A DNA stretch of 27,795 nucleotides from the IMG/VR virus record IMGVR_UViG_3300032676_000818, positions 1-27,795 of that record; one strand, given 5' to 3'. The notes below the pieces were generated by a model, which worked only from the letters and a program-made list of their open reading frames with translations, made no database searches and was not told where the DNA came from. Both the position numbers and the translations under genes were made by a program. The DNA is from a virus. Positions 3,279-20,954 of this stretch are shown in pieces; within the stretch, counting starts at the first letter, position 1, and each line of letters starts with the position of its first letter.

Positions 3279-3326
3279 AAAAAAAGGGAGAGGGAGAGAC
3301 TTTAGTCTCTCCCTCTCCCTTTTTTT
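3279..3326. terminator. Strong bidirectional terminator, 23-bp perfect stem
   Basis: Seven As followed by a purine-rich GGGAGAGGGAGAGACT arm (3279-3301) pair perfectly with 3304-3326, which ends in seven Ts. Because both ends carry A/T runs, it works as an intrinsic terminator in either direction. It sits 1 nt from the stop of the last minus-strand cassette gene (3328) and ends plus-strand transcription coming from 2711. Confidence 0.9.
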
Positions 3327-3327
3327 G

Positions 3328-3552
3328 TTACTTACGCGCGGTCTTGCTGACCTCGCGCCAGAGTCGCCATGCGACTCCGGTGGTGATGCCACCGGACACC
3401 CAACTGGCTGTTACCAGCGTTGATGCGTCCATTGTGACTTGGTTGAGTTCGGTGTACGTCCAGTGCTTGACTAGGTACCCCTCGATGAGACAACCGAGCG
3501 CGAACGCCCAGTCGTGCCATCGCTTGACTTGGAAGTGGAACCCGTACTTCAT
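3328..3552 (-). CDS. Small probable membrane protein, 74 aa
   Basis: Last gene of the amidoligase cassette. Its ATG overlaps the amidotransferase TGA as ATGA, so the two are translationally coupled. The product has Trp/His-rich residues at the N-terminus and one weakly hydrophobic stretch at about residues 43-66 (small residues, Gly, Trp), then a basic end R-E-V-S-K-T-A-R-K. One membrane span with a positive C-terminus is plausible. It is not recognisable as a known family. A membrane partner of the two enzymes or a holin-like protein are options. Confidence 0.65.
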   Translation of the reverse strand: MKYGFHFQVKRWHDWAFALGCLIEGYLVKHWTYTELNQVTMDASTLVTASWVSGGITTGVAWRLWREVSKTARK

Positions 3553-4403
3553 CGTGTGATGTACGAGTCGCAGTTACAAGCCCGCCAGTGTGTGTTGCAC
3601 ACTTGGCACGTGCCGCATTCGTTGCAGATGCCGAAGTCTTGCTGAAACACGTACTCAGGGCAGTCTGCGAGGATGCACTTCTTGCCGTACAAGGCGAGGA
3701 GTTCGTCCTCCGAGGGGATGTCGAACGTGTCGTAATCCTCCCACATGGACTCTTCCTTCTTCACGCTGTACACACTTGCGCTAGCGGGGGTGTATGGCGC
3801 GGCGTACGTGGTACGAGGCTTCCATGACTGGTTAGACCACCAGAGCCCGGACTGCTTGTCCCAACTGCCGAGGTGCTCGCCAAGGATGATGACGGGCATC
3901 TCGTCGTACACGGTGTTCAGGATGACGACTTTGGAGTGCTGCCCCGTGACGTAACCGTCGAGGACATCCCACACGTACGGGTCGGACAGACCTGCCACCC
4001 CGCCGAAGCGGGGCAGCACGTCTTCTGCGAAGACTTGCGAGTCTACGCGGTTGTCCGTCTTGGGGATGCTCAGGCCGAGCATTCCATTGTGGGCGAGCAG
4101 GGAGCCTGACCCGTCACCAACGGTGAATGGGTGGCATCCTGCAAGGTGTACTCCGCCTCGGGTGGCGATGCGTGCGTGGAACAGGTGTCCCAGCACGTCG
4201 TCACCGAGGAGGTCGAGCATCGACAGGTAGCCGTCGATTGCGGTGTCAGCGTCCATTGAGTGGTCGCTTTCGATGGCTCGTGAGGCACCGTCTTGGTAGA
4301 CGATGCCCCAACCGAAGCCATCAGGGTTGTTGATGCACGAGACGACAAGGTCGGCTCGTGTTGGACGCTCGTTGCCGGTCGTGCCGACACAGATTACGCA
4401 CAT
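3549..4403 (-). CDS. Class II glutamine amidotransferase-like (Ntn hydrolase) with Cys-rich tail
   Basis: The 284-residue product begins M-C, giving the N-terminal nucleophile Cys2 expected after Met removal. It keeps the class II amidotransferase landmarks: N-P-D-G-F-G-W-G (26-33), H-A-R-I-A-T-R-G (76-83, the glutamine-binding H-x-R-x-A-T), H-P-F (91-93), H-N-G (105-107) and a D-S-Q-V-F motif (121-125). Such domains hydrolyse glutamine, releasing ammonia for a partner ligase. After about residue 240 it gains a Cys-rich module (C243, C248, C260, C263, C266, C269, C276, C278), probably zinc binding. It overlaps the amidoligase end by 10 nt. It could instead act as a peptidase or gamma-glutamyl hydrolase; the fold is confident and the substrate unknown. 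Confidence 0.85.
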   Translation of the reverse strand: MCVICVGTTGNERPTRADLVVSCINNPDGFGWGIVYQDGASRAIESDHSMDADTAIDGYLSMLDLLGDDVLGHLFHARIATRGGVHLAGCHPFTVGDGSGSLLAHNGMLGLSIPKTDNRVDSQVFAEDVLPRFGGVAGLSDPYVWDVLDGYVTGQHSKVVILNTVYDEMPVIILGEHLGSWDKQSGLWWSNQSWKPRTTYAAPYTPASASVYSVKKEESMWEDYDTFDIPSEDELLALYGKKCILADCPEYVFQQDFGICNECGTCQVCNTHWRACNCDSYITR

Positions 4404-5524
4404 GGGTCAATTCCGTTCTCCAGCGTGAAGCGCTGGTTGTTGAGGATGGCAATTGCCATCGGGTAGTTGTTGGAGCGGACAAACTTGTCGAAGTTCGAGA
4501 AGTTGAGTCCGCCGTTGATGGCTTCGTGAGCCGTCATGTTGCGGGTGTACTCCGCGGCTGCGTGGATGAACTCGATGCAGCCGATGACGCGACCCACAGC
4601 CAGCGAGGGCCGGAAAATCCGGAACTCGATGGTGGCGCCGCCGTTGGCGCCGAGGTTGACTGCGTCGGTGTGATTCGCCGCGTGCGGTGCTTTGACCTTG
4701 ATGGCAGCGCTGCCATTGAGGCCGTCGAACCGTGCGTACGAGGAGCGACGGTTTGCGATGCGAACCCAGTCGTGCTCGTTGCGGGAGAACAGCATCACCA
4801 ATCGCATGGCGTGCGAGTTGGTGAAGTGTCCACGACCGACGTGGACGTGCAGACCCGCGTTGCTGCGGTTCCACGCGCGCTGACCGAGGTTGGAGATTCC
4901 AATCATGGTCTGGTTCAAGTCGCGGGCGATTTCGCGCCATGACTCAAGCGAGCGTGGGTGGCTGACAATTTCCATCCCGTTGTTCAGGGACCCGTCGTAC
5001 TTCAGGTAGAAGTCGTCACGAGTCCAGTCGTCACGGAAGGCGCAGATTGCTTCTTCCAGCCGGTACTGGACGTTTTCCGACTCAAGTTCGATGCCGAAGG
5101 TGAGGACGCCTGTGGGCGATTCACCGATGGCGAACTTGTGCTGAGGACCCGGCTTGTAGCCGTAGTCATCGAGACGGGCTGCGCTGCGTTGTGCCGCAGT
5201 TGGGCAGTCGGGGTCTTCTTCCCACTCGTCGCAGGTGTCACACCAGTAGGCGACATCGCGGATGCAGTCTTCGCAGTATTGTTCACCTGCGCAGTAGATG
5301 TACGAGTGGTGCGCTTCCCAGAAGCACTGGTCGCACGAGTAGCACGTCCACGTGTGGTCATCCACGTGGTCGTAGCACCACTCTTCCACGCGCCCGTAGG
5401 CGGCGATGACTGAGCGTGTGATTTCGTCGTTGTCAATGACGTGCTCATTGCCGTACTCGCACATGGTGGGGTTTTCCGGCTGAATTTCCGGCTGGTCGGG
5501 TACTGCGTTGGTCTCGCTTGGCAT
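4394..5524 (-). CDS. Amidoligase (Amidoligase_2, glutamine-synthetase-like fold) with zinc-binding N-terminus
   Basis: The 376-residue product matches phage and bacterial COOH-NH2 ligases of the glutamine-synthetase fold, which use ATP to join a carboxyl to an amine. Signatures: F-G-I-E-L-E (143-148), Y-D-G-S-L (176-180), E-I-V-S-H-P (185-190), G-L-H-V-H-V-G (224-230) and I-E-F-R-I-F (299-304). These supply metal- and ATP-binding acids and histidines. Residues 22-107 hold ten cysteines, many in C-x2-C pairs (61/64, 84/87, 95/98), likely a zinc-finger docking domain. The start has AAAGGAAG upstream. Known members of this family pair with amidotransferases and are predicted to make peptide modifications. 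The actual substrate cannot be read from sequence. Confidence 0.85.
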   Translation of the reverse strand: MPSETNAVPDQPEIQPENPTMCEYGNEHVIDNDEITRSVIAAYGRVEEWCYDHVDDHTWTCYSCDQCFWEAHHSYIYCAGEQYCEDCIRDVAYWCDTCDEWEEDPDCPTAAQRSAARLDDYGYKPGPQHKFAIGESPTGVLTFGIELESENVQYRLEEAICAFRDDWTRDDFYLKYDGSLNNGMEIVSHPRSLESWREIARDLNQTMIGISNLGQRAWNRSNAGLHVHVGRGHFTNSHAMRLVMLFSRNEHDWVRIANRRSSYARFDGLNGSAAIKVKAPHAANHTDAVNLGANGGATIEFRIFRPSLAVGRVIGCIEFIHAAAEYTRNMTAHEAINGGLNFSNFDKFVRSNNYPMAIAILNNQRFTLENGIDPCA

Positions 5525-5548
5525 AGCGAAACTTCCTTTCTCTCTCGT

Positions 5549-5569
5549 GTTAGCAGACGGTCTGCTAAC
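5549..5569. promoter_or_regulatory. 10-bp inverted repeat before the amidoligase start
   Basis: GTTAGCAGAC-g-GTCTGCTAAC lies 25 nt upstream of the amidoligase ATG, between a TATAAT box and the ribosome site. It could be an operator or a leader hairpin for the cassette. No T-run follows. Confidence 0.5.
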
Positions 5570-5587
5570 GCGACTTTTTAGAAACTT

Positions 5588-5604
5588 TGCGTTTCGAAAC
5601 TAAT
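5588..5604. repeat. 17-bp copy of the 3031/3077 repeat at a promoter
   Basis: TGCGTTTCGAAACTAAT is identical over 17 bases to copy 2. Here the GTTTCGAAAC palindrome (5591-5600) lies just downstream of a minus-strand TATAAT (5603-5608), covering the expected start site. That placement suggests a repressor operator. Confidence 0.6.
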
Positions 5605-5608
5605 TATA
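5603..5608 (-). promoter_or_regulatory. TATAAT -10 box for the amidoligase operon
   Basis: A consensus TATAAT reads leftwards about 80 nt before the amidoligase ATG. The -35 position has no good TTGACA or GTAAC match (CCCAAC at 17 nt), so the promoter may need an activator. The flanking palindromes point to regulation. Confidence 0.45.
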
Positions 5609-5654
5609 GTTAGTGACTAGCCCCTGTTGGGGGTTTTGTTGTGAAAAGGTGGCT

Positions 5655-5695
5655 GGCTGGCGAGCGAGTTCATGTAGTGAACTCGCTCGCCAGCC
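5655..5695. terminator. 18-bp perfect hairpin between the membrane gene and the amidoligase promoter
   Basis: Bases 5655-5672 pair perfectly with 5678-5695 around a TGTAG loop. The hairpin lies immediately after the stop of the minus-strand membrane gene (5699). Read on the minus strand the stem is followed by CACCTTTTCACAAC, a weak T-run. It probably separates the two upstream genes from the amidoligase transcription unit. Confidence 0.6.
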
Positions 5696-5698
5696 TTA

Positions 5699-5881
5699 CT
5701 ACCAACCTTGGCGACGTGCATGCGCGCGCCGCGCACGGGCACGGGCACGCCTCCGGCGGGCACGGGCACGCTCACGCGCATTTGGTCGGTCGGATACAAA
5801 GATGTATAGCGCGAGGAACAGTATCATCACGAATACATCTCCGAGTACGGCGCCCGTGCCGTTTGGGTCTAGAACTCCCAC
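5699..5881 (-). CDS. Small membrane protein with Arg-rich tail, 60 aa
   Basis: The product has one clear membrane span (V-F-V-M-I-L-F-L-A-L-Y-I-F-V) followed by a strongly basic Arg/Ala/His tail (R-A-R-A-R-R-R-R and onward), so it should sit with the tail inside the cell. I chose the GTG at 5881 because TGGAGGA lies 7 nt upstream; an ATG at 5902 would add seven residues. It overlaps the end of the acidic gene by about 13 nt. The tail is encoded by a GC-rich direct repeat, so its length may vary between relatives. It could bind DNA or the acidic neighbour electrostatically. Function unknown. Confidence 0.6.
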   Translation of the reverse strand: MGVLDPNGTGAVLGDVFVMILFLALYIFVSDRPNARERARARRRRARARARRAHARRQGW

Positions 5882-6162
5882 GATGGTTCCTCCATTTCGC
5901 ACTCTGCGAGGTCAGTGTACTGGCGCATGTCGATTTCGTCGAGCCAGCCTTCGTACAGGTGGTCGTACTTGGACAGGATTTCGTTTACGAAATCGTGGTC
6001 GGGGTGCGATTCGTTCTCAGATATGGCTTCGATTTTTCCCAACGTTTTGTATGCTGCGTCGCGATATGCAGGTGTGGCGTTTGTGTTATAGAACGCTTGG
6101 AAAATCCAGTCCGCGACTTCGGCTGGAGTTACTTCTTCCTCGGTTTCGATAAATTCTAACAT
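5869..6162 (-). CDS. Acidic protein, 97 aa, unknown
   Basis: The start at 6162 has AAAGGAAAG directly upstream; an in-frame extension to 6213 lacks such a site. The 97-residue product is very acidic (I-E-T-E-E-E near the start, E-C-E-M-E-E-P-S-W-E-F at the end) and mostly helical. The acidic C-terminus resembles tips that dock on partner proteins. It heads the minus-strand cassette. It may be an adaptor, a DNA mimic or a target of the amidoligase system (Glu-rich), but none of these is shown by the sequence. No membrane span or Cys pair. Confidence 0.65.
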   Translation of the reverse strand: MLEFIETEEEVTPAEVADWIFQAFYNTNATPAYRDAAYKTLGKIEAISENESHPDHDFVNEILSKYDHLYEGWLDEIDMRQYTDLAECEMEEPSWEF

Positions 6163-6265: not shown

Positions 6266-6329
6266 GCGAAGTGGACTCGCTATATGAGGGCTTTAGCCCT
6301 CTGCGAGGCCGGTGAAGCGGGTGTGGGGT

Positions 6330-6373
6330 CGCTAGCCGCTTAGTGAGCCGAAGGCGAACTTAGCGGCGTAGCG
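6330..6373 (+). ncRNA. Stem with tandem G-A motif, copy 2
   Basis: CGCTA and GCCGCT (6330-6340) pair with AGCGGC and TAGCG (6362-6373) around one bulged G (6368). Inside come T6341-T6361, AGT/ACT, GA/GA (6345-6346/6356-6357) and the hairpin GCC-GAA-GGC. This is the cleanest example of the motif. Confidence 0.6.
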
Positions 6374-6377
6374 CGGA

Positions 6378-6461
6378 GCCTCTTAGTGAGTCGAGGTTTA
6401 GAGCCCGTAGGCGAGGCGGGAGCCGAGCCCAACGGGGTCTTACTAAGAAGAACTTAGAGGC
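6378..6461 (+). ncRNA. Stem with tandem G-A motif, copy 3 (multi-branch)
   Basis: GCCTCT (6378-6383) pairs with AGAGGC (6456-6461), followed inward by T6384-T6455, AGT/ACT (6385-6387/6452-6454) and GA/GA (6388-6389/6450-6451). It encloses about 60 nt that can form further stems. Same internal layout, different outer stem. Confidence 0.55.
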
Positions 6462-6491
6462 GTAAGGCCGAAGGACTCCCGCGTGCGACTA

Positions 6492-6592
6492 CAACTTCTT
6501 AGTGAGGACTGGATTGTTTGAGAATGTGGTGGGGCCCCGCTTGCGGGGGTAACGACATTGTCAAAGAATTTGTTGGTCGAACTTAGAAGTTG
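6492..6592 (+). ncRNA. Stem with tandem G-A motif, copy 4 (multi-branch)
   Basis: CAACTTCT (6492-6499) pairs with AGAAGTTG (6585-6592), then T6500-T6584, AGT/ACT (6501-6503/6581-6583) and GA/GA (6504-6505/6579-6580). It encloses the hairpin CCCCGC-tt-GCGGGG (6535-6548). Confidence 0.55.
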
Positions 6593-12795: not shown

Positions 12796-13227
12796 ATGCC
12801 ACGTAAAGGTAGGGGCGGCGCACGCCAAGGAACACCGGGCATTGCGTACGGAAACCGTACGGACTTGAACCAGCCCATCTCAACCGTGCCCGGTCAGGAA
12901 TACGGCAAGGCAACGGAGCAGCGCGATGCACAGCGGGCTGTGCCAATGGCTTCTTCCCCCGTCGCCGACATCGACCCCTCTATGGCACCCCCCACCCCGC
13001 AAGGGCGCCCTATGGCAATGCCGGGCTCGTTGCCGTACATTGCTCCCACTTCACGGCCCGACGAGCCAGTAACCGCTGGGCTGCCTACTGGCCCTGGCCC
13101 TGGCCCTGAAGCGTTGGGCGCTACTGGACCAACCTTTGACCAAATCATTCGCAGCGTTGCAAGTAGCCCACACGCTTCTGCCGTTGCTACTCAAATCGCC
13201 AATGTGGCTCGTTCGTTAGGTTATTAA
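12796..13227 (+). CDS. Disordered Pro/Gly-rich protein, 143 aa
   Basis: The product begins with a basic Gly-rich stretch (P-R-K-G-R-G-G-A-R-Q-G), continues through a long Pro/Gly/Ala/Met region with P-G-P-G-P-G-P, and ends in a short helix (I-A-N-V-A-R-S-L-G-Y). It is probably unstructured for its first 110 residues. It lies between portal and the giant protein, with TAATG overlap into the latter. It may be an adaptor or a head-packaged cargo linker. No known family. Confidence 0.8.
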   Translation: MPRKGRGGARQGTPGIAYGNRTDLNQPISTVPGQEYGKATEQRDAQRAVPMASSPVADIDPSMAPPTPQGRPMAMPGSLPYIAPTSRPDEPVTAGLPTGPGPGPEALGATGPTFDQIIRSVASSPHASAVATQIANVARSLGY

Positions 13228-16200
13228 TGGCAGATTTCACTCCCGTCGGTGGCGTTGAAGCAAATGCTGAGGGGCACCGCCCCGGATACACAATTAGCGA
13301 TTCAACCGTTACCGACCCGGGTTTGGACGCAACAAACGCTCTTGGTTTTTCAACCGACCACAAACTCGCCACTTTCATTGCAGACAACTCAGGCTTGGGC
13401 AACTCGCCCGACGCCCTGCTGGGCTACGCCCAGGCCCACGACTTAAACGCAAACCAGGTTTCCGCTGCGGCAAAGTACATGTTGCTGCATCATCACATTG
13501 ACCAGTACCTAGGCCAGCAGACTCAACAAGAAAGCCTGTGGGGCGCATTTACCCACACGGTTTTTAGCGGCGTTCGAAGCGCTGTCGATAGTTGGCAAAA
13601 TGCACTGTTTCACAATCAGAACGAAATCCAAGGGTTTAACAGTGGTGGTGTTCTTGGGGCGCTTGGGGCAAACGCTTCCCAAGACGTAAAAACCGCGGAG
13701 AACATTCCGAAAGATGTTAGTAAAGTTGCCGGTGCGATACCGGGGGCCGTTGAGGGCATTGGCAAAAAACTCTACAACATTCAGATGCAGTCCGAGGCTC
13801 AACAAGCCGAAGCCATTCAAAACCAGGGATTCGTAAAAGGTGTTTTGGGCTCAAGCGCCTACCCAGGAATCATTAGTGGTGCAACGCAAGGCACGGATGA
13901 CATTGCCAAGTTTGTGTGGGATGTTGCCAAGCGGTTTGGCGTAAGTTCTGAAGAGTTGATGACCTTGGGGTTTGAAGGGCCCAAGGGAAATTGGCTGGGC
14001 AACATTGAAGACCTTGGGGCAACTTTTGCAAATGCGATTCGCTCGACGGGAGATTTGGTTAACCCGTTCAGCAAGAGCAACGGTTTCATGCTCATGGCTC
14101 ACACCATGGCGTTCTACCAAAGCGTTGCCGCAAAGTATGGTTGGGCTCACGCGATGGGCTACGCACTCCCTTCAGTCATGGCTAGTCTTGCGACCGATGG
14201 GGCAGTCTCTGCGGGCGTTACCGCCGAAGACGCTGTGACAGCGGCTAGTGACGATGAAGTTATTAACACTGTTAACAACGCCCTTTCAAGTAATGAGCCG
14301 ATTTCGGATGACTTGAAGGCGTCGTATGAAAAGGCGATGGAACGACGGGCTGCTCGTCTTAAGGCGCAGAAGATTACGGAAGAGGGACAAGCCGGCTCGA
14401 AAGCCATGAAGGCTTCTGAAAAGTTCTTTGACTATTCAACGCGTCCGCTTTCTTCAATGTTTAAGGCGGCACGTAGCATGGGTAAGCCCATGGCAAGCGT
14501 CAAGATGAACGCTTTGTACCTTACGACGCAGGAGTCGGCTCTTAAGAGTTCGGACCCCTGGATTAAGGACATGTGGGACAAGACCCGCAACGGTATCGCT
14601 TACGATGCTTCTGGCCGGCCAATGGGGACCGACGGGCAAGTCCTTGCTAGTTATTTTGGTTTGGACAAGGGGAGCATGTTTTTCTCCCCTGTCTCCGGCT
14701 TGACCGACTTCTATACCAAGTGGATTGGCGCCGACCCCTTGGGAGCATACGGCAAAGCAGTCGGTGGCGCTTTCTCATTTGACGGCTTTAGCGGAATGCT
14801 GGGTCGGTGGTTCGGTGGTCTTGGCGTTCGCAGCGCTGATGACGTACAACGAGCCTACAACGAGTACGGGCGCGTGCGTCGCGCTTTCCAGTACATGGCC
14901 ACCCACAATGCCGCCGAGATTGCTGACGCTTTCCGTAATACGTACAGCAACGATGCAGTCCGAGACGTATCTGCGGGCTCTTTGCTTTCTCGTTTGGGCG
15001 AGGCCAAGACCGTCGATGAAGTCATCAAAATCCACCAAGACGTTGCCGAGGGTTTCTCAATGACCAAGGGCATGGTGCCAACCATGACCTACTATGAAGT
15101 AACCAAGGCGGCCCTTAAGGGCAAGTTGGGTGAGATTCTCCACACCGTAGGTGATGCATTTGAAACCGACGGTCGATTCCGTGAATACATCGCCAAGGCC
15201 GTGATGGAGCAGACGGGTGTGGACATCCGCCCAAACAACGCCCTTCTTTACATTGCCAATGGCGACAGCGTCCTGAGCACCACCGCATTTGCCCGTTGGC
15301 TGTCCACCCGGTTCACGCGTGACGCCATGTACATCGACGACCTCTTGGGCAAAGTGGAAAACCGCGTTGTTCGAGTCGGCAGTGCTGACGCCATCCCAGC
15401 GATTATGGACTTCTTGCGCTCTTGTTTGATGGACGAAACTACCATCAAGACTGTTGGCGATGCGCTGCTACACACGACTAACAAGCAGGACTACATCAAC
15501 GTCTACCGCCACGCAATGTATCACGCAGTGATGCGCCGCGTCACCGCAGGTATGAACAAAGCCGAATTGTCAGTTTTCCTTGCGACTTCGTCAGACCACG
15601 TGTGGAATGAAGTGATTCGCATGACCGGACTCGACGGCGGAAGCCGCACCGCGTTTGCTTCTATTGCGGGTGAGTTTGGTGCGGACGCTGCACAGACCGT
15701 CAACTCCGACGCCGCCAAGTTTGGTGGCATTGGCTTGACCCACCTGGGAGAACTTCGGTTCCCGCGTGCGGCAGAACTCCGTGGATTGGCCAAGAGGACC
15801 GAGGCCATAACTGCCACCATCTACGCTTCGCAGCATGGCCAGGAACTTGCCACTCAGTTGCTGAAACTTGAAGACCTGCAGAAATTGGCCGAGTTCCATG
15901 GCGCAGACTTGAACGGCGCAGACGAAGTCGTCCGAACCAAAATCCAAGAAGCAGTCAAAAAGATTGAACCCGTGGCCACCCGCTTTGAAGCGTCAGGCGT
16001 AAGCCCAGAAACCCACGCCATCAACAAGGGTGCTGAGCAATTCAAGGAAGACGGCGGACGTGTGCTTTACATGAAGAACACAAAGCGTCAAAGGCGCATG
16101 CTCTTCAACCAAGCGGCCGACATCCGCATTGCAGCGAATGTAATGGTCAACCGTCCGCAGGAAGCCGCAAGGATGCGGACCCTGGCCGACGCCATTGAAA

Positions 16201-19200
16201 AAATTGCCAGTGGCGCAGAAGGCCACGTTGCCATAATTCGTGGTGACGTTGTTGGCGCGGCAACCACCCGCATGGACGACAACGGTGTTGTCAAGATTGA
16301 CGAGATGGCGCACATGCCTGGCCACGGTACGGCCCACGACGCAATCAAGAAGGCAATTGCCAAGATTGCCTATGGGACCGACTCCCCCATCGAAGGCGCC
16401 GGTCTTGCCTTCACGCCAGATGAAGTTGCCGAGATTGCTAGCGACCCCAAATTGGCCGAGACTGACATGGTCAAGGGATATAACACCGGCCACGACGGCG
16501 TCCAGTCAATCATCGCCAAGCACATGGCTGACAAGTACGCCGCTGAAAGCGAAAAACTTGCCAATGCGTACGACGAGATTCGTGCGGAAGTCTTTAACAT
16601 CCAACCGCGCATAAATTCGCTTGCGGACGAGATTGCTCGTGGAAACTCCGAGAGCCTCTTTGCTTACGCAATGGGCATGGGGGACAAGCCTGCCGACCCC
16701 AAGGAACTTATTCAGGAGATGAACTCCTTAAAGGGCCGACAGACAGCATTCCAGGATGCTGCGACTGAACTCGCTCGTCGCATGGAATCGCCGACGTACA
16801 CGGAGGAAGAACTCCGTAACGCCGTCATTGCGCTTCGGGAGGCAACCCACAACAGCCTTGAACTTAGCGAGATGCTCAAGACGGGCCGTGGGTACAAGCC
16901 ACCAGAAATGAAGAAGTTTATTGCGGACTCCTATTCACAGGACCTGCAGGACGAAGACCTCTACGAAATGCCTGCGTCCGAGACCGGCTGGGACCGTGGC
17001 GTCATTGACCGCCTAAAGGACAGGTTGCAAGAAACGTTCCCGGGAAACCCCGAGACCGCCCAGAAGTTTATTGACCAACTTAACTCGTTTGCCGACATGA
17101 TTGGCAAGGGAATGTTCAAGGGGCTTTTCACTTGGAAGGTCGGCGGTGAAAGCCCTATCGCTTTGGGCGTGTACCCACAAGCAGGTAATTACAACCCGTA
17201 CGACACCATAATGAACATTTTCGACAAGGCGTTGCGCAACCCCGCTTACCTCAAGCACACCCTTGTTCACGAACTCTGGCACCACCTTTCGACCTACGCG
17301 CCTGATGGCGTACTTAAGGGTTTACGAGATGAATTGACTTCAGCGCAGGAGGACTTCCTTAGCAAGTTCCCTCTTCGCGAGTACATTAACTCTAAGGACT
17401 ACGCCTTCGAAGCAGACCCCGAAGAAAAGAAGTACCTCGAAAGCCTTGCGTCAAAGTTCAGGGGCGCCGAAAACATCCCGGTAAATCAAATTGATTTCCG
17501 TCGCCTCCCGTACTACATCATGCGTTACGGCGGACGTAACTACCACCTTGCTAATCTTGACGAGTACTTCGCCGAGAAGATGACGTTTGCGACCGAAGAC
17601 ACGATGACAAACAACCCAACCCTTCGGGCCGCCCGTCGAATCTTTGGCGCGACCCTTGAAGGCATTGGCGCAGTGCACGGCAACAACTTTGCGGAAGAAG
17701 TCTTTAAGGATTTCTGGGAGCAGCGGTTCACTGATTTCTCTCCAGTCAAGGACACCTTGACCATGCGACTTAAGAACCTTGACGCCCAGGCGTTCAACGC
17801 CTTGGTCAAGGACCCGCCCATCGAGACGGTTCAGAAACTGGTCAAGGAAATGTACGCCGCCTATAAGGGGAAGAACCCGTACACCCTTGCTTGGCAGCGC
17901 ACTGCTGACGGCATCAACCGATTCCTGAGCAAGACCTTTGTTCCCCTTGCCCTCTTCTCCGGCGGTTGGGCACTTCGCGTCGGCGCTTCCGAAGCAACGC
18001 TTAACTCCCTACGTTTTGGTGGGTGGGCATCGTTTGACGCAAAGGTAATGACTGCGATTGCGAAGCACGAAGCCCGAGGACTCATGGCGTTGGAAGACGC
18101 TACCAAGGAACGAGGCCTCATCCGCAACGTTGTCGCCGGTGCTTTGCTCGGTGTCGAAAAAAACATCGTCCGAGGCATGGACCAATTCCAGCGAGACCGT
18201 ATGTTGGACGACTTTGTCGGCACCATCATCCGTCACAACGGACACCTGCCCGGTGGCGTGCATGAAGTCGAAGACACCGTGTTCAATGACAAGACGGTCG
18301 AAAACGCAATGGCTGGTCTTGTTCTTGGTGTTGACGACAAGGGCCGTTTCATCATGGCCGATACCCACTCTTCGAAGGACGGCGGCTGGGGCTATCTTTC
18401 GTCGGGCAGCGCAGACTACGTCCGTGCTTTGCGTGAGCACATCACCCGCTTGGCGAACGACCCACTGCTCAACCCCACCTCAAAGAAACTTGAAGAAATC
18501 TTCTACGAGGCCGGCCTCAAGTCAATGGGCGGGGACCTCAATAACCTTCCTCGTGAAGTCGAGCGACTTTCGGCAGACGAGCAGCGCCAGGAGATTATCA
18601 GTGCCGGTGCCTCGCAGTACCGTACGCCTGAGTCGGTGGAGATTCTTCGCGAGCAGTTGGAACAGACCGCACTTGATTCCATCAACAGTCTTTCCGAAGC
18701 AGACCGCGTTCGCTTCGACCGAGACCTCGGTCGCCTTAACGCAACTAGCCCGTTGGCCCGTAATTCCGCTCACGAAGAATGGGCTGCCGTAATCGCCGAA
18801 AATGCCATCAAGAGTGTCATGGGTAAGGACGAGACGGGATACATCTTCCACTCGCCGCTTGTTATGCAGGCCGCAAACCCTGAGACGATTAAGTCAATGG
18901 ACGAGTTCACCCGTGACCTCAACGGCATGGGCGCTACTGCACCGACCAACATCCCGAGCAGCATGACCAAGGCCAGCGCCCCAGGTCGTTACTCGCTCCA
19001 GCACTTGACGCAGGTTGGGCACGACAAATTCCTTGGACCAATCGTGAACAAGATGGTGCGTGAACCCACGTTCCTCCTTGAGCAGCACTACGCTATGGAG
19101 AAGTTGCGCGACCTAGTGAAGATTAACGCGGTGGACGAAGAGACCGCTCAGGCGATGGCCGACGAGCGTGCCTTCCGCAACATGAGTAAGTATGTTCACA

Positions 19201-20954
19201 ACCCCAAGGACAAGACCCTTTGGGAAGTAAACATGCGAGTTGCCGCGCCGTTCTACTTTGCCCAAAACCAGGCTTGGCGTCGTGCTTTCCGCGTCATGCG
19301 CGAAGACCCGGGTGCATTTGAGAAGTACCTTAAGTTGTCTTTGGGCGTGACTAACTACATCAGCAGCGCCTCCTCTGGCGGGAACATCCCAAGCATCTTC
19401 ATCCCGGGCTCAACTTGGCTGGGCAAGTCCGGCGCCATTGCCGGTACTCGTATTGACCCCAACAGCCCCGGTTGGTTCTTCAACCAAATGAACTTTGGCT
19501 TTGCGTTCGACCCAATTTCTGTGTCGTCTGTGTTCCCCACGGGCTCGACGGGCTTTGGCCGCCACGACTACCTCTCAGACCTTGGGCTTTTCCGCCCATC
19601 GTGGGGCCCCGTCGTGACCATCCCAATCAAGATGTCCGAGTTCTTCCTTAACAAGTCACACACCTGGCCGATGCTTTCCAAGGTTCTTAACGCTTGGGTT
19701 CTGGGGCCTGCTTCGGCGAACTCGTCGCTGTACAGCGACTTCTTCCCAAACACGGCCGCTCGCGACTTGCTTGAGGTTGGTGTTTCGTTGGCTGGTGTGT
19801 CTGGCATCCCCCAGTTTTCGACCGACGCTTTGAACAGTACCGAAAACCTTGTCATCAACAACGCAATGGACAACCTGTACACGCGTGAATACGAGAACGT
19901 CTACAACAAGTACGACTGGAACAGCATCAACCCCGACACTGGAAACAAATGGACGCAACAGCAAATTGTCCAGTACTGCCGCGGCCAGGCGGACCTGAGC
20001 ATCACCAAGATGTTCAATCAAGTTGGCTTTACCCAGAAGTTCCTCGACGAAGCCCACGCTCAGGCCATCGTCATGTTCTTGGTGAAGTCAGTGCTTCAGA
20101 TGGGTTCGCCCGTTGCACTGAGCCTTCAGGAGAAGTTCTCGGCTGACCCCGAGTTCCAAAAGATTCTTGACAGCGTTGACCCACTTACCAAGCAGAAGTA
20201 CACGCTTCAGTCGGCGTCGGCAAAGTTTGCGGAGAAGTTCCCCACTCACCTCTACGACCTTGTTGCTCACAGCAGCGGGCCGTACGAGACGTGGGCGGAA
20301 ACAACGTCGGCAGTTCAGTTCATTCAGGACCACCCGAACGTTGCTCGTCAGTTCCCCAACGCATCGGCAATGTTGATTACCCGAGGTAATTACTCGCCGC
20401 AGGCGTACCAACTTGAAGCATCGCTTGGCTTGCGCCAGACGGACGCTCCTCAGGACTACATCAACGCCCTCTTGGTTTCGGCGGGCAACGACTACTACTA
20501 CAACTACCTTGCCACTGAGCCGCAGTTCGGGGGCAACGGGAGCACCGCTGGGCAGGCTATTTCGTACGAACAGTACACCGCCCTCAGCACGGCGGCAAAG
20601 CAGTACGGCATGTCCTCGAACCCGACGTGGTACACCTCGTTTGTTGGTGCTCAGCGGCACAACCTTGAAATAAACGCCTTCAAGGAAATGAACACCATGC
20701 TGAAGTCCAAGGACGTACCAGACGCCGTCTTCGGTGGGGCCGGCGAAAAAGCCAAGTTCGAAAACCTCATTCAGCAATACAACGGGGCTTTGTCCCAGGT
20801 CAACGATTTGGTTTCTGTTGGCGACAAGACGATTGCCAACTACGTCCGCCAGGAATGGTATGCGTTCTGTCTCCAGGCGGCTGCCAACCCGTACTACAAG
20901 AACCAGGGGTACTTCTTGACCTCAGTCCTTGCCAAACTACCCACCGCGAACTAA
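13227..20954 (+). CDS. Giant virion/ejection-type protein (2575 aa) with zincin protease motif
   Basis: The largest gene in the window. The first 450 residues are helical and Ala/Gly rich. Around 1000-1055 a segment (H-V-A-I-I-R-G-D-V-V-G-A, then M-P-G-H-G-T-A) weakly resembles a GNAT acetyltransferase core. At 1348-1353 H-E-L-W-H-H gives the zinc motif H-E-x2-H, and D-E-Y-F-A-E (1445-1450) offers the downstream Glu ligand seen in gluzincin-type metallopeptidases. The C-terminal 1000 residues are Asn/Phe/Trp-rich structural sequence. The position after portal and before scaffold, with giant size, suggests an internal protein packed in the head and ejected with DNA, or a MuF-like head protein fused to enzymes. 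The protease might mature the head or cut host wall or proteins. No exact family recognised. Confidence 0.8.
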   Translation: MADFTPVGGVEANAEGHRPGYTISDSTVTDPGLDATNALGFSTDHKLATFIADNSGLGNSPDALLGYAQAHDLNANQVSAAAKYMLLHHHIDQYLGQQTQQESLWGAFTHTVFSGVRSAVDSWQNALFHNQNEIQGFNSGGVLGALGANASQDVKTAENIPKDVSKVAGAIPGAVEGIGKKLYNIQMQSEAQQAEAIQNQGFVKGVLGSSAYPGIISGATQGTDDIAKFVWDVAKRFGVSSEELMTLGFEGPKGNWLGNIEDLGATFANAIRSTGDLVNPFSKSNGFMLMAHTMAFYQSVAAKYGWAHAMGYALPSVMASLATDGAVSAGVTAEDAVTAASDDEVINTVNNALSSNEPISDDLKASYEKAMERRAARLKAQKITEEGQAGSKAMKASEKFFDYSTRPLSSMFKAARSMGKPMASVKMNALYLTTQESALKSSDPWIKDMWDKTRNGIAYDASGRPMGTDGQVLASYFGLDKGSMFFSPVSGLTDFYTKWIGADPLGAYGKAVGGAFSFDGFSGMLGRWFGGLGVRSADDVQRAYNEYGRVRRAFQYMATHNAAEIADAFRNTYSNDAVRDVSAGSLLSRLGEAKTVDEVIKIHQDVAEGFSMTKGMVPTMTYYEVTKAALKGKLGEILHTVGDAFETDGRFREYIAKAVMEQTGVDIRPNNALLYIANGDSVLSTTAFARWLSTRFTRDAMYIDDLLGKVENRVVRVGSADAIPAIMDFLRSCLMDETTIKTVGDALLHTTNKQDYINVYRHAMYHAVMRRVTAGMNKAELSVFLATSSDHVWNEVIRMTGLDGGSRTAFASIAGEFGADAAQTVNSDAAKFGGIGLTHLGELRFPRAAELRGLAKRTEAITATIYASQHGQELATQLLKLEDLQKLAEFHGADLNGADEVVRTKIQEAVKKIEPVATRFEASGVSPETHAINKGAEQFKEDGGRVLYMKNTKRQRRMLFNQAADIRIAANVMVNRPQEAARMRTLADAIEKIASGAEGHVAIIRGDVVGAATTRMDDNGVVKIDEMAHMPGHGTAHDAIKKAIAKIAYGTDSPIEGAGLAFTPDEVAEIASDPKLAETDMVKGYNTGHDGVQSIIAKHMADKYAAESEKLANAYDEIRAEVFNIQPRINSLADEIARGNSESLFAYAMGMGDKPADPKELIQEMNSLKGRQTAFQDAATELARRMESPTYTEEELRNAVIALREATHNSLELSEMLKTGRGYKPPEMKKFIADSYSQDLQDEDLYEMPASETGWDRGVIDRLKDRLQETFPGNPETAQKFIDQLNSFADMIGKGMFKGLFTWKVGGESPIALGVYPQAGNYNPYDTIMNIFDKALRNPAYLKHTLVHELWHHLSTYAPDGVLKGLRDELTSAQEDFLSKFPLREYINSKDYAFEADPEEKKYLESLASKFRGAENIPVNQIDFRRLPYYIMRYGGRNYHLANLDEYFAEKMTFATEDTMTNNPTLRAARRIFGATLEGIGAVHGNNFAEEVFKDFWEQRFTDFSPVKDTLTMRLKNLDAQAFNALVKDPPIETVQKLVKEMYAAYKGKNPYTLAWQRTADGINRFLSKTFVPLALFSGGWALRVGASEATLNSLRFGGWASFDAKVMTAIAKHEARGLMALEDATKERGLIRNVVAGALLGVEKNIVRGMDQFQRDRMLDDFVGTIIRHNGHLPGGVHEVEDTVFNDKTVENAMAGLVLGVDDKGRFIMADTHSSKDGGWGYLSSGSADYVRALREHITRLANDPLLNPTSKKLEEIFYEAGLKSMGGDLNNLPREVERLSADEQRQEIISAGASQYRTPESVEILREQLEQTALDSINSLSEADRVRFDRDLGRLNATSPLARNSAHEEWAAVIAENAIKSVMGKDETGYIFHSPLVMQAANPETIKSMDEFTRDLNGMGATAPTNIPSSMTKASAPGRYSLQHLTQVGHDKFLGPIVNKMVREPTFLLEQHYAMEKLRDLVKINAVDEETAQAMADERAFRNMSKYVHNPKDKTLWEVNMRVAAPFYFAQNQAWRRAFRVMREDPGAFEKYLKLSLGVTNYISSASSGGNIPSIFIPGSTWLGKSGAIAGTRIDPNSPGWFFNQMNFGFAFDPISVSSVFPTGSTGFGRHDYLSDLGLFRPSWGPVVTIPIKMSEFFLNKSHTWPMLSKVLNAWVLGPASANSSLYSDFFPNTAARDLLEVGVSLAGVSGIPQFSTDALNSTENLVINNAMDNLYTREYENVYNKYDWNSINPDTGNKWTQQQIVQYCRGQADLSITKMFNQVGFTQKFLDEAHAQAIVMFLVKSVLQMGSPVALSLQEKFSADPEFQKILDSVDPLTKQKYTLQSASAKFAEKFPTHLYDLVAHSSGPYETWAETTSAVQFIQDHPNVARQFPNASAMLITRGNYSPQAYQLEASLGLRQTDAPQDYINALLVSAGNDYYYNYLATEPQFGGNGSTAGQAISYEQYTALSTAAKQYGMSSNPTWYTSFVGAQRHNLEINAFKEMNTMLKSKDVPDAVFGGAGEKAKFENLIQQYNGALSQVNDLVSVGDKTIANYVRQEWYAFCLQAAANPYYKNQGYFLTSVLAKLPTAN

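Follow-up and report, generated by a model that had tools for sequence, protein, structure and literature searches.

The window analyzed here is the whole stretch of 27,795 bases from virus record IMGVR_UViG_3300032676_000818. Five minus-strand genes lie at positions 3328-6162, two of them core enzyme genes and three of them accessory genes. The core genes encode a predicted amidoligase and a predicted class II glutamine amidotransferase, which probably (at about 0.65) form a two-subunit, glutamine-dependent ligase that amidates carboxylates. The pair is of an already known kind (Marvin gp105/gp106; Iyer 2009) and is present here in a minimal form. What is new is quantitative: the two genes are all but obligate partners, move as a unit, are widespread in actinophages and have a counterpart in Clostridial elements. 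An earlier note on this DNA had described five minus-strand genes with amidoligase and amidotransferase signatures and had proposed that the pair jointly forms amide bonds. The description is confirmed, with all expected catalytic motifs kept. The proposal is strongly supported by the motifs, the fold matches, the near-obligate adjacency and the congruent trees.

Glutamine synthetase and class II amidotransferases have a well-established chemistry, from which the pair would be expected to form an amide on a carboxylate, with ATP and ammonia derived from glutamine. By analogy, the amidotransferase, an Ntn hydrolase with Cys2 as its nucleophile, would hydrolyze glutamine and pass the ammonia to the amidoligase. 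The amidoligase, in the fashion of glutamine synthetase, would use ATP to turn a carboxylate into an activated acyl phosphate and then into an amide. Channeling, chemistry and product are those expected of the two families.

Catalytic motifs and modeled folds

The open reading frame (ORF) at 4394..5524 (minus strand, 376 amino acids (aa)) is classed, on its motifs and model, as a glutamine synthetase-fold amidoligase of the Amidoligase_2 type. It contains a Cys-rich, LIM/zinc-ribbon-like module at residues ~22-107 and a catalytic core at ~140-350. The motifs GIELES, KYDGS, EIVSHP, GLHVHV, R259 and TIEFR are present, as are all of the catalytic residues (E146, E148, E185, H226, H228, R259 and T298-E300-R302). 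As a series (GxExE, DGS, E.VSHP, GxHxH, R, TxExR), the motifs are colinear with their well-known order in glutamine synthetase. Of the 120 distinct viral loci, 119-120 have them unchanged, as do 62-63 of 63 bacterial-genome loci. The viral loci, here and below, are drawn from the best 80 of 426 and the best 80 of 225 viral relatives; they include near-duplicate contigs, and the counts are not independent events.

By itself, the window amidoligase scores 18.0 bits against Amidoligase_2 (PF12224; E=0.0028), which is below the cut-off of 22. Its relatives have E values of 1.7e-9 (L012), 2.4e-8 (L010) and 1e-4 (L006), with bit scores of 38.4, 34.6 and 22.7, all over the cut-off. The window amidotransferase scores 23.0 bits against GATase_4, right at the cut-off. 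Taken alone, the window proteins lie at the Pfam edge, with weak but real evidence of family, and the assignment to Amidoligase_2 draws on the relatives, which score clearly. A PF12224 profile search of the window's own record gave no match, and a direct hmmscan and the relatives were used instead. Among PHROGs, the amidoligase matches 16683 (E=3e-25) and the amidotransferase matches 25883 (E=5e-17).

The ORF at 3549..4403 (minus strand, 284 aa) is likewise classed, from motifs and fold, as an Ntn-type class II glutamine amidotransferase, with a catalytic Cys2 and a C-terminal 8-Cys module at residues 243-278. Its motifs are Cys2, HAR..T.G, HPF, HNG and D121, and the glutamine-binding and oxyanion residues R78, T81, G83, N106, G107 and D121 are present. 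Cys2 after Met is kept in 120 of 120 viral relatives; HxRxxTxG, HPF, HNG and Asp are kept in all or almost all of them. A profile match and the key residues had been named in advance as checks on both proteins: the window amidoligase is below the Amidoligase_2 cut-off and its relatives are above it, and the catalytic residues are near-invariant in the viral relatives.

The AlphaFold models have mean pLDDT values of 69.6 (amidoligase) and 73.4 (amidotransferase) and are best in their cores. Foldseek matches in the PDB are glutamine synthetase, YbdK, GmaS and Dop for the amidoligase (E 4e-5 to 1e-3) and GFAT/GlmS, EgtC and PurF for the amidotransferase. PurF/GlmS are also matched by the amidotransferase at the sequence level. 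In BFVD, the amidoligase model matches an annotated phage amidoligase (E 2.5e-22); one of the matches there bears the name of a LIM-domain protein.

Adjacency, co-inheritance and distribution

The amidotransferase lies directly downstream of the amidoligase in 77 of the 79 viral loci found via the amidoligase; the two exceptions are contigs that end 1 and 33 bases past the amidoligase. Among viral loci found via the amidotransferase, 77 of 78 have the amidoligase directly upstream, and the lone exception is cut at the contig start. A comparison of synteny, also proposed beforehand as a check, finds the homologues paired from both sides. The 176 distinct pairs have a median gap of 2 bp, and 169 of them are within 50 bp.

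The amidoligase and amidotransferase trees are congruent (Mantel r = 0.86), and their correlations with terminase are 0.65 and 0.71. With terminase distance removed, the correlation between the two proteins is 0.74. With amidotransferase distance removed, the correlation between amidoligase and terminase is 0.12. Because the tree correlation survives the terminase correction, the two genes are judged from their sequences to move as a unit. The linkage is not mere shared synteny, since the trees agree beyond terminase and the pair is found in unrelated replicons.

Synteny with the window across the viral loci includes terminase in 84, WhiB in 82 and a sigma-factor-like gene in 74, which points to actinobacterial hosts and to one large phage lineage. 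The window virus probably infects actinobacteria. The pair is also found in mycobacteriophage Marvin and its relatives, a Manatee Spring podovirus, Methylophilales phages, a Mycobacterium chimaera plasmid and many Clostridial loci with resolvase or DUF5906 neighbors. The pair on the M. chimaera plasmid (154 kb; L268, 3860-5532) is of the Marvin type. Its amidotransferase has been annotated from a start without the MC N-terminus, one that is probably placed too far downstream.

At least 62 of 80 bacterial-genome loci have the complete set of class II motifs after the amidoligase, and several of the others are cut short. In the collection of bacterial and archaeal genomes, the amidoligase profile finds relatives, whereas the phage-type amidotransferase, used alone, finds none. 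Against the corresponding phage profiles, most Clostridial amidoligases score 220-270 bits and their partners 22-36 bits. The partners tested are clearly of the GATase_6 type (E 3e-12 and 1.5e-13). From these comparisons, it seems to be amidotransferase activity, not one particular protein, that gets kept. In a survey of neighbors across host groups, only the amidotransferase recurs beside the amidoligase, and a universal third component was rejected for this reason. Small DUF960 or DUF3846 genes are often near the amidoligase in Clostridial loci L182-L261, on elements with resolvases.

Two loci have a different arrangement. In Clostridioides phage AR1086-1 (L266, 2740-4929), a nucleotidyltransferase-like gene follows the amidoligase core, in the place of the amidotransferase. 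In Natrialba virus PhiCh1 (gp41-gp40; L024, 2929-4576), a class II amidotransferase homologue is immediately preceded by a protein that has amidoligase-like motifs. PhiCh1 gp41 is not confirmed as an amidoligase, with a profile-profile probability of 1-3% despite colinear HGMEIE, HVH and TIELR.

The Cys-rich modules differ in distribution. Amidoligase cysteines 22, 50, 61, 64, 84, 87, 95 and 98, together with the less strictly kept 107, are retained in 98-119 of the 120 viral loci, and the eight amidotransferase cysteines at 243-278 are retained in 116-118. Six CxxC motifs precede the amidoligase core in 53 of 63 bacterial-genome loci, and no CxxC is present in the C-terminal region of 59 of 63 bacterial-genome partners. 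The amidoligase module is accordingly best read as ancestral and family-wide, because bacterial-genome homologues carry CxxC motifs too, and the amidotransferase module as a feature of the phage branch. The earlier view that both modules had been gained holds for the amidotransferase, and it fails for the amidoligase, whose module is common to the bacterial-genome homologues. The modules most likely bind zinc and serve in substrate or partner docking; the Cys spacing and the beta-hairpin/helix pattern suggest zinc binding. The Cys module was dropped as a strict marker of pairing, since StenR_269 pairs without it.

Known systems and alternative functions

In Marvin, gp105/gp106 (PHROG 22302/25883) also place the amidoligase directly upstream of the class II amidotransferase, with Cys motifs in both proteins, ahead of the core in the amidoligase and at the C-terminus in the amidotransferase. 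They differ from the window pair in sequence (about 29% and 27% identity), in having a 79-bp gap where the window genes overlap, and in not sharing the accessory genes. Both Marvin genes (gp105 at L019, 3920-5281) and their relatives are deposited only as "glutamine amidotransferase domain protein". For the amidoligase, this name seems to be an erroneous annotation that it has in common with its neighbor.

The "peptidoglycan modification" cassettes of phiEco32, LUZ24, tf and RIO-1 (PF12224, GATase, ATP-grasp and GGCT) also encode an Amidoligase_2 protein and a class II amidotransferase together (PMC3890496, PMC5498523; StenR_269, L023). Unlike the minimal window pair, they include further ligases, GGCT and ATP-grasp genes. 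The StenR_269 amidoligase differs from that of the window in matching PHROGs 7469, 7631 and 2443 and in having no Cys-rich module. The Clostridial pairs, in integrated elements of Oscillospiraceae and others, resemble the window pair in having an amidoligase with a Cys-rich module and a class II amidotransferase directly downstream. Their amidotransferase is of another subfamily (GATase_6) without the C-terminal Cys module, and their neighbors are resolvase, DUF960, DUF3846 and DUF5906 genes. MurT/GatD combines a Mur-ligase fold with a class I-like amidotransferase and has no homology to the window pair. It is similar in being a two-gene system for glutamine-dependent amidation (PMC3267633).

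Several points weigh against the reading of the pair as an amidating ligase. Both AlphaFold models fall short of high confidence, and the PDB TM-scores are low, mostly 0.3-0.45. A sequence search for solved structures close to this amidoligase type found none, and no fusion of amidoligase with amidotransferase was found when looked for. The amidoligase core is not always paired, since that of C. difficile phage AR1086-1 stands without a Cys module and without an adjacent amidotransferase. No measured activity or functional test for any member was found in the literature searched. Class II motifs alone cannot tell ammonia donation from gamma-glutamyl hydrolysis, and the best-ranked rival is a protect-deprotect pair of the latter kind, which the motifs cannot separate. 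Here the amidoligase would add a gamma-glutamyl (or other) group that the Ntn enzyme would later remove, with no ammonia transfer, as in EgtA/EgtC of ergothioneine synthesis or PuuA/PuuD. Near-obligate pairing fits this equally well, and the fold matches include YbdK (of the glutamine synthetase-fold glutamate-cysteine ligase type), Dop and, for the partner, EgtC. However, the amidotransferase matches the ammonia donors GlmS and PurF at least as well, sequence included, and the Clostridial partners are of the plain GATase_6 type. In the EgtC and PuuD pathways, other enzymes work between the ligation and hydrolysis steps, but no intermediate-step enzyme is conserved near the pair. Protection and deprotection are considered unlikely.

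For an amidating ligase, a protein or peptide of phage or host is a credible, if tentative, target. A peptide precursor of the host cell envelope is the most quoted candidate and is possible but doubtful; a small metabolite or nucleotide takes the rest. Envelope tailoring for superinfection exclusion, in which the pair would amidate or crosslink the carboxylates of peptidoglycan stem peptides, is a choice of substrate within the amidating-ligase reading and is similarly doubtful. Cell-wall modification against superinfection, a role that the earlier note also raised, is the usual guess in the literature: it was proposed for phiEco32 (Iyer 2009, as cited in PMC10580990, PMC5498523 and PMC11318856) and is repeated for later phages. 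For Marvin, PMC10580990 quotes secondary metabolites and phage-host interaction. There is a chemical analogy to amidation by MurT/GatD (PMC3267633), and peptidoglycan is present in the bacterial hosts of all confirmed members. On the other side, no GGCT (PF06094) or RimK-type ATP-grasp domain (PF08443, the one ATP-grasp family searched) was found in the window and 21 related records, which may be fragments, whereas the StenR_269 control has both. A tyrosine integrase is present in only 1 of 22 records, so long-term exclusion in lysogens is no obvious need. The haloarchaeal host of PhiCh1 has no murein, and the related PhiCh1 amidotransferase adjoins the protein with amidoligase-like motifs, although the homology of the latter is non-significant. 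It is somewhat unlikely that the pair is a self-contained tailoring enzyme with one shared purpose in unrelated phages and integrated elements, acting on a non-peptidoglycan substrate (host or phage protein, peptide or nucleotide) and amidating proteins or metabolites for host takeover or counter-defense.

Modification of DNA or nucleotides, with the pair building an amide on a modified base, is very unlikely. Some phage base-modification pathways do use class II amidotransferases and amide-forming ligases, and the zinc modules could bind nucleic acid. The usual companion of hypermodification is a thymidylate-synthase-family gene, but none is present in 23 records including Marvin, in a one-family test that is not exhaustive. 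It is also highly improbable that the pair is an anti-phage defense system: it is carried by phages, a plasmid and integrated elements, as such a system on phages and mobile elements might be, but no PADLOC model matches either protein in its phage or Clostridial version, and no effector-like third gene is conserved.

Phage amidoligases were predicted in 2009, and the present family pares the question of their role to two genes, so that neither GGCT nor a RimK-type ATP-grasp ligase would confound an assay. In about 180 distinct loci the two genes are all but inseparable, and one version is carried by Marvin, which is grown on the tractable M. smegmatis mc2 155. A substrate, if found in Marvin, would give a function to hundreds of viral contigs and to the corresponding Clostridial elements.

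Accessory genes and other features of the window

The gene cluster at 3328-6162 sits between a plus-strand early block (SSB, WhiB) and a late block (terminase, portal, capsid). The three accessory genes are all on the minus strand. An acidic protein of 97 aa (25 D/E, 5 K/R) is encoded at 5869..6162, and its gene overlaps that of a small protein of 60-67 aa (5699..5902; start at 5902 or 5881) with one clear transmembrane segment and an Arg-rich tail. A gap of 175 bp parts these two genes from the enzyme genes. The amidoligase and amidotransferase genes overlap by 10 bp, and a small gene for a weakly hydrophobic 74-aa protein (3328..3552) overlaps the amidotransferase stop by 4 bp. The five genes had been described as overlapping or closely spaced; the overlaps are present, and the single group is not, the genes falling into sets of two and three.

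Two elements lie in the gap. One is a perfect 18-bp inverted repeat (5655..5695), located between the genes for the small membrane protein and the amidoligase; the other, just upstream of the amidoligase start, is the perfect 21-bp palindrome GTTAGCAGACgGTCTGCTAAC (5549..5569). The palindrome is found only once in the window and is not expected by chance; its sequence is operator-like. The inverted repeat is a possible terminator or processing site. Because of the gap with these two elements, the cluster may be two transcription units, not one. A bidirectional, terminator-like hairpin with perfect 23-bp arms and runs of A and T (3279..3326) closes the unit.

Of the two small membrane proteins in the earlier note, only the 5699-5902 product clearly qualifies, with a Kyte-Doolittle maximum of 2.62; at 1.0, the 74-aa protein is marginal. 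Among L001-L018, homologues of the acidic and 74-aa genes are limited to the window's own phage and L005-L007, and the small transmembrane/basic gene has a positional counterpart in L006 at 6316-6507. On this distribution, the accessory genes are regarded as lineage-specific neighbors, conserved only in the nearest relatives. The narrow range of these genes, set against the near-universal two-gene core, does not support localization of the pair by membrane proteins. Nor, with homologues equally restricted, is there support for the acidic protein as an adaptor or a substrate.

Between the portal and major capsid genes, a 2,575-aa ORF extends over 13227-20954 (plus strand). A PHROG search at E<=0.001 gives no match for its product, and Pfam gives no meaningful one. 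The product, which includes the zinc-peptidase-like HExxH motif HTLVHELWHHLS, is possibly a giant ejected virion protein.

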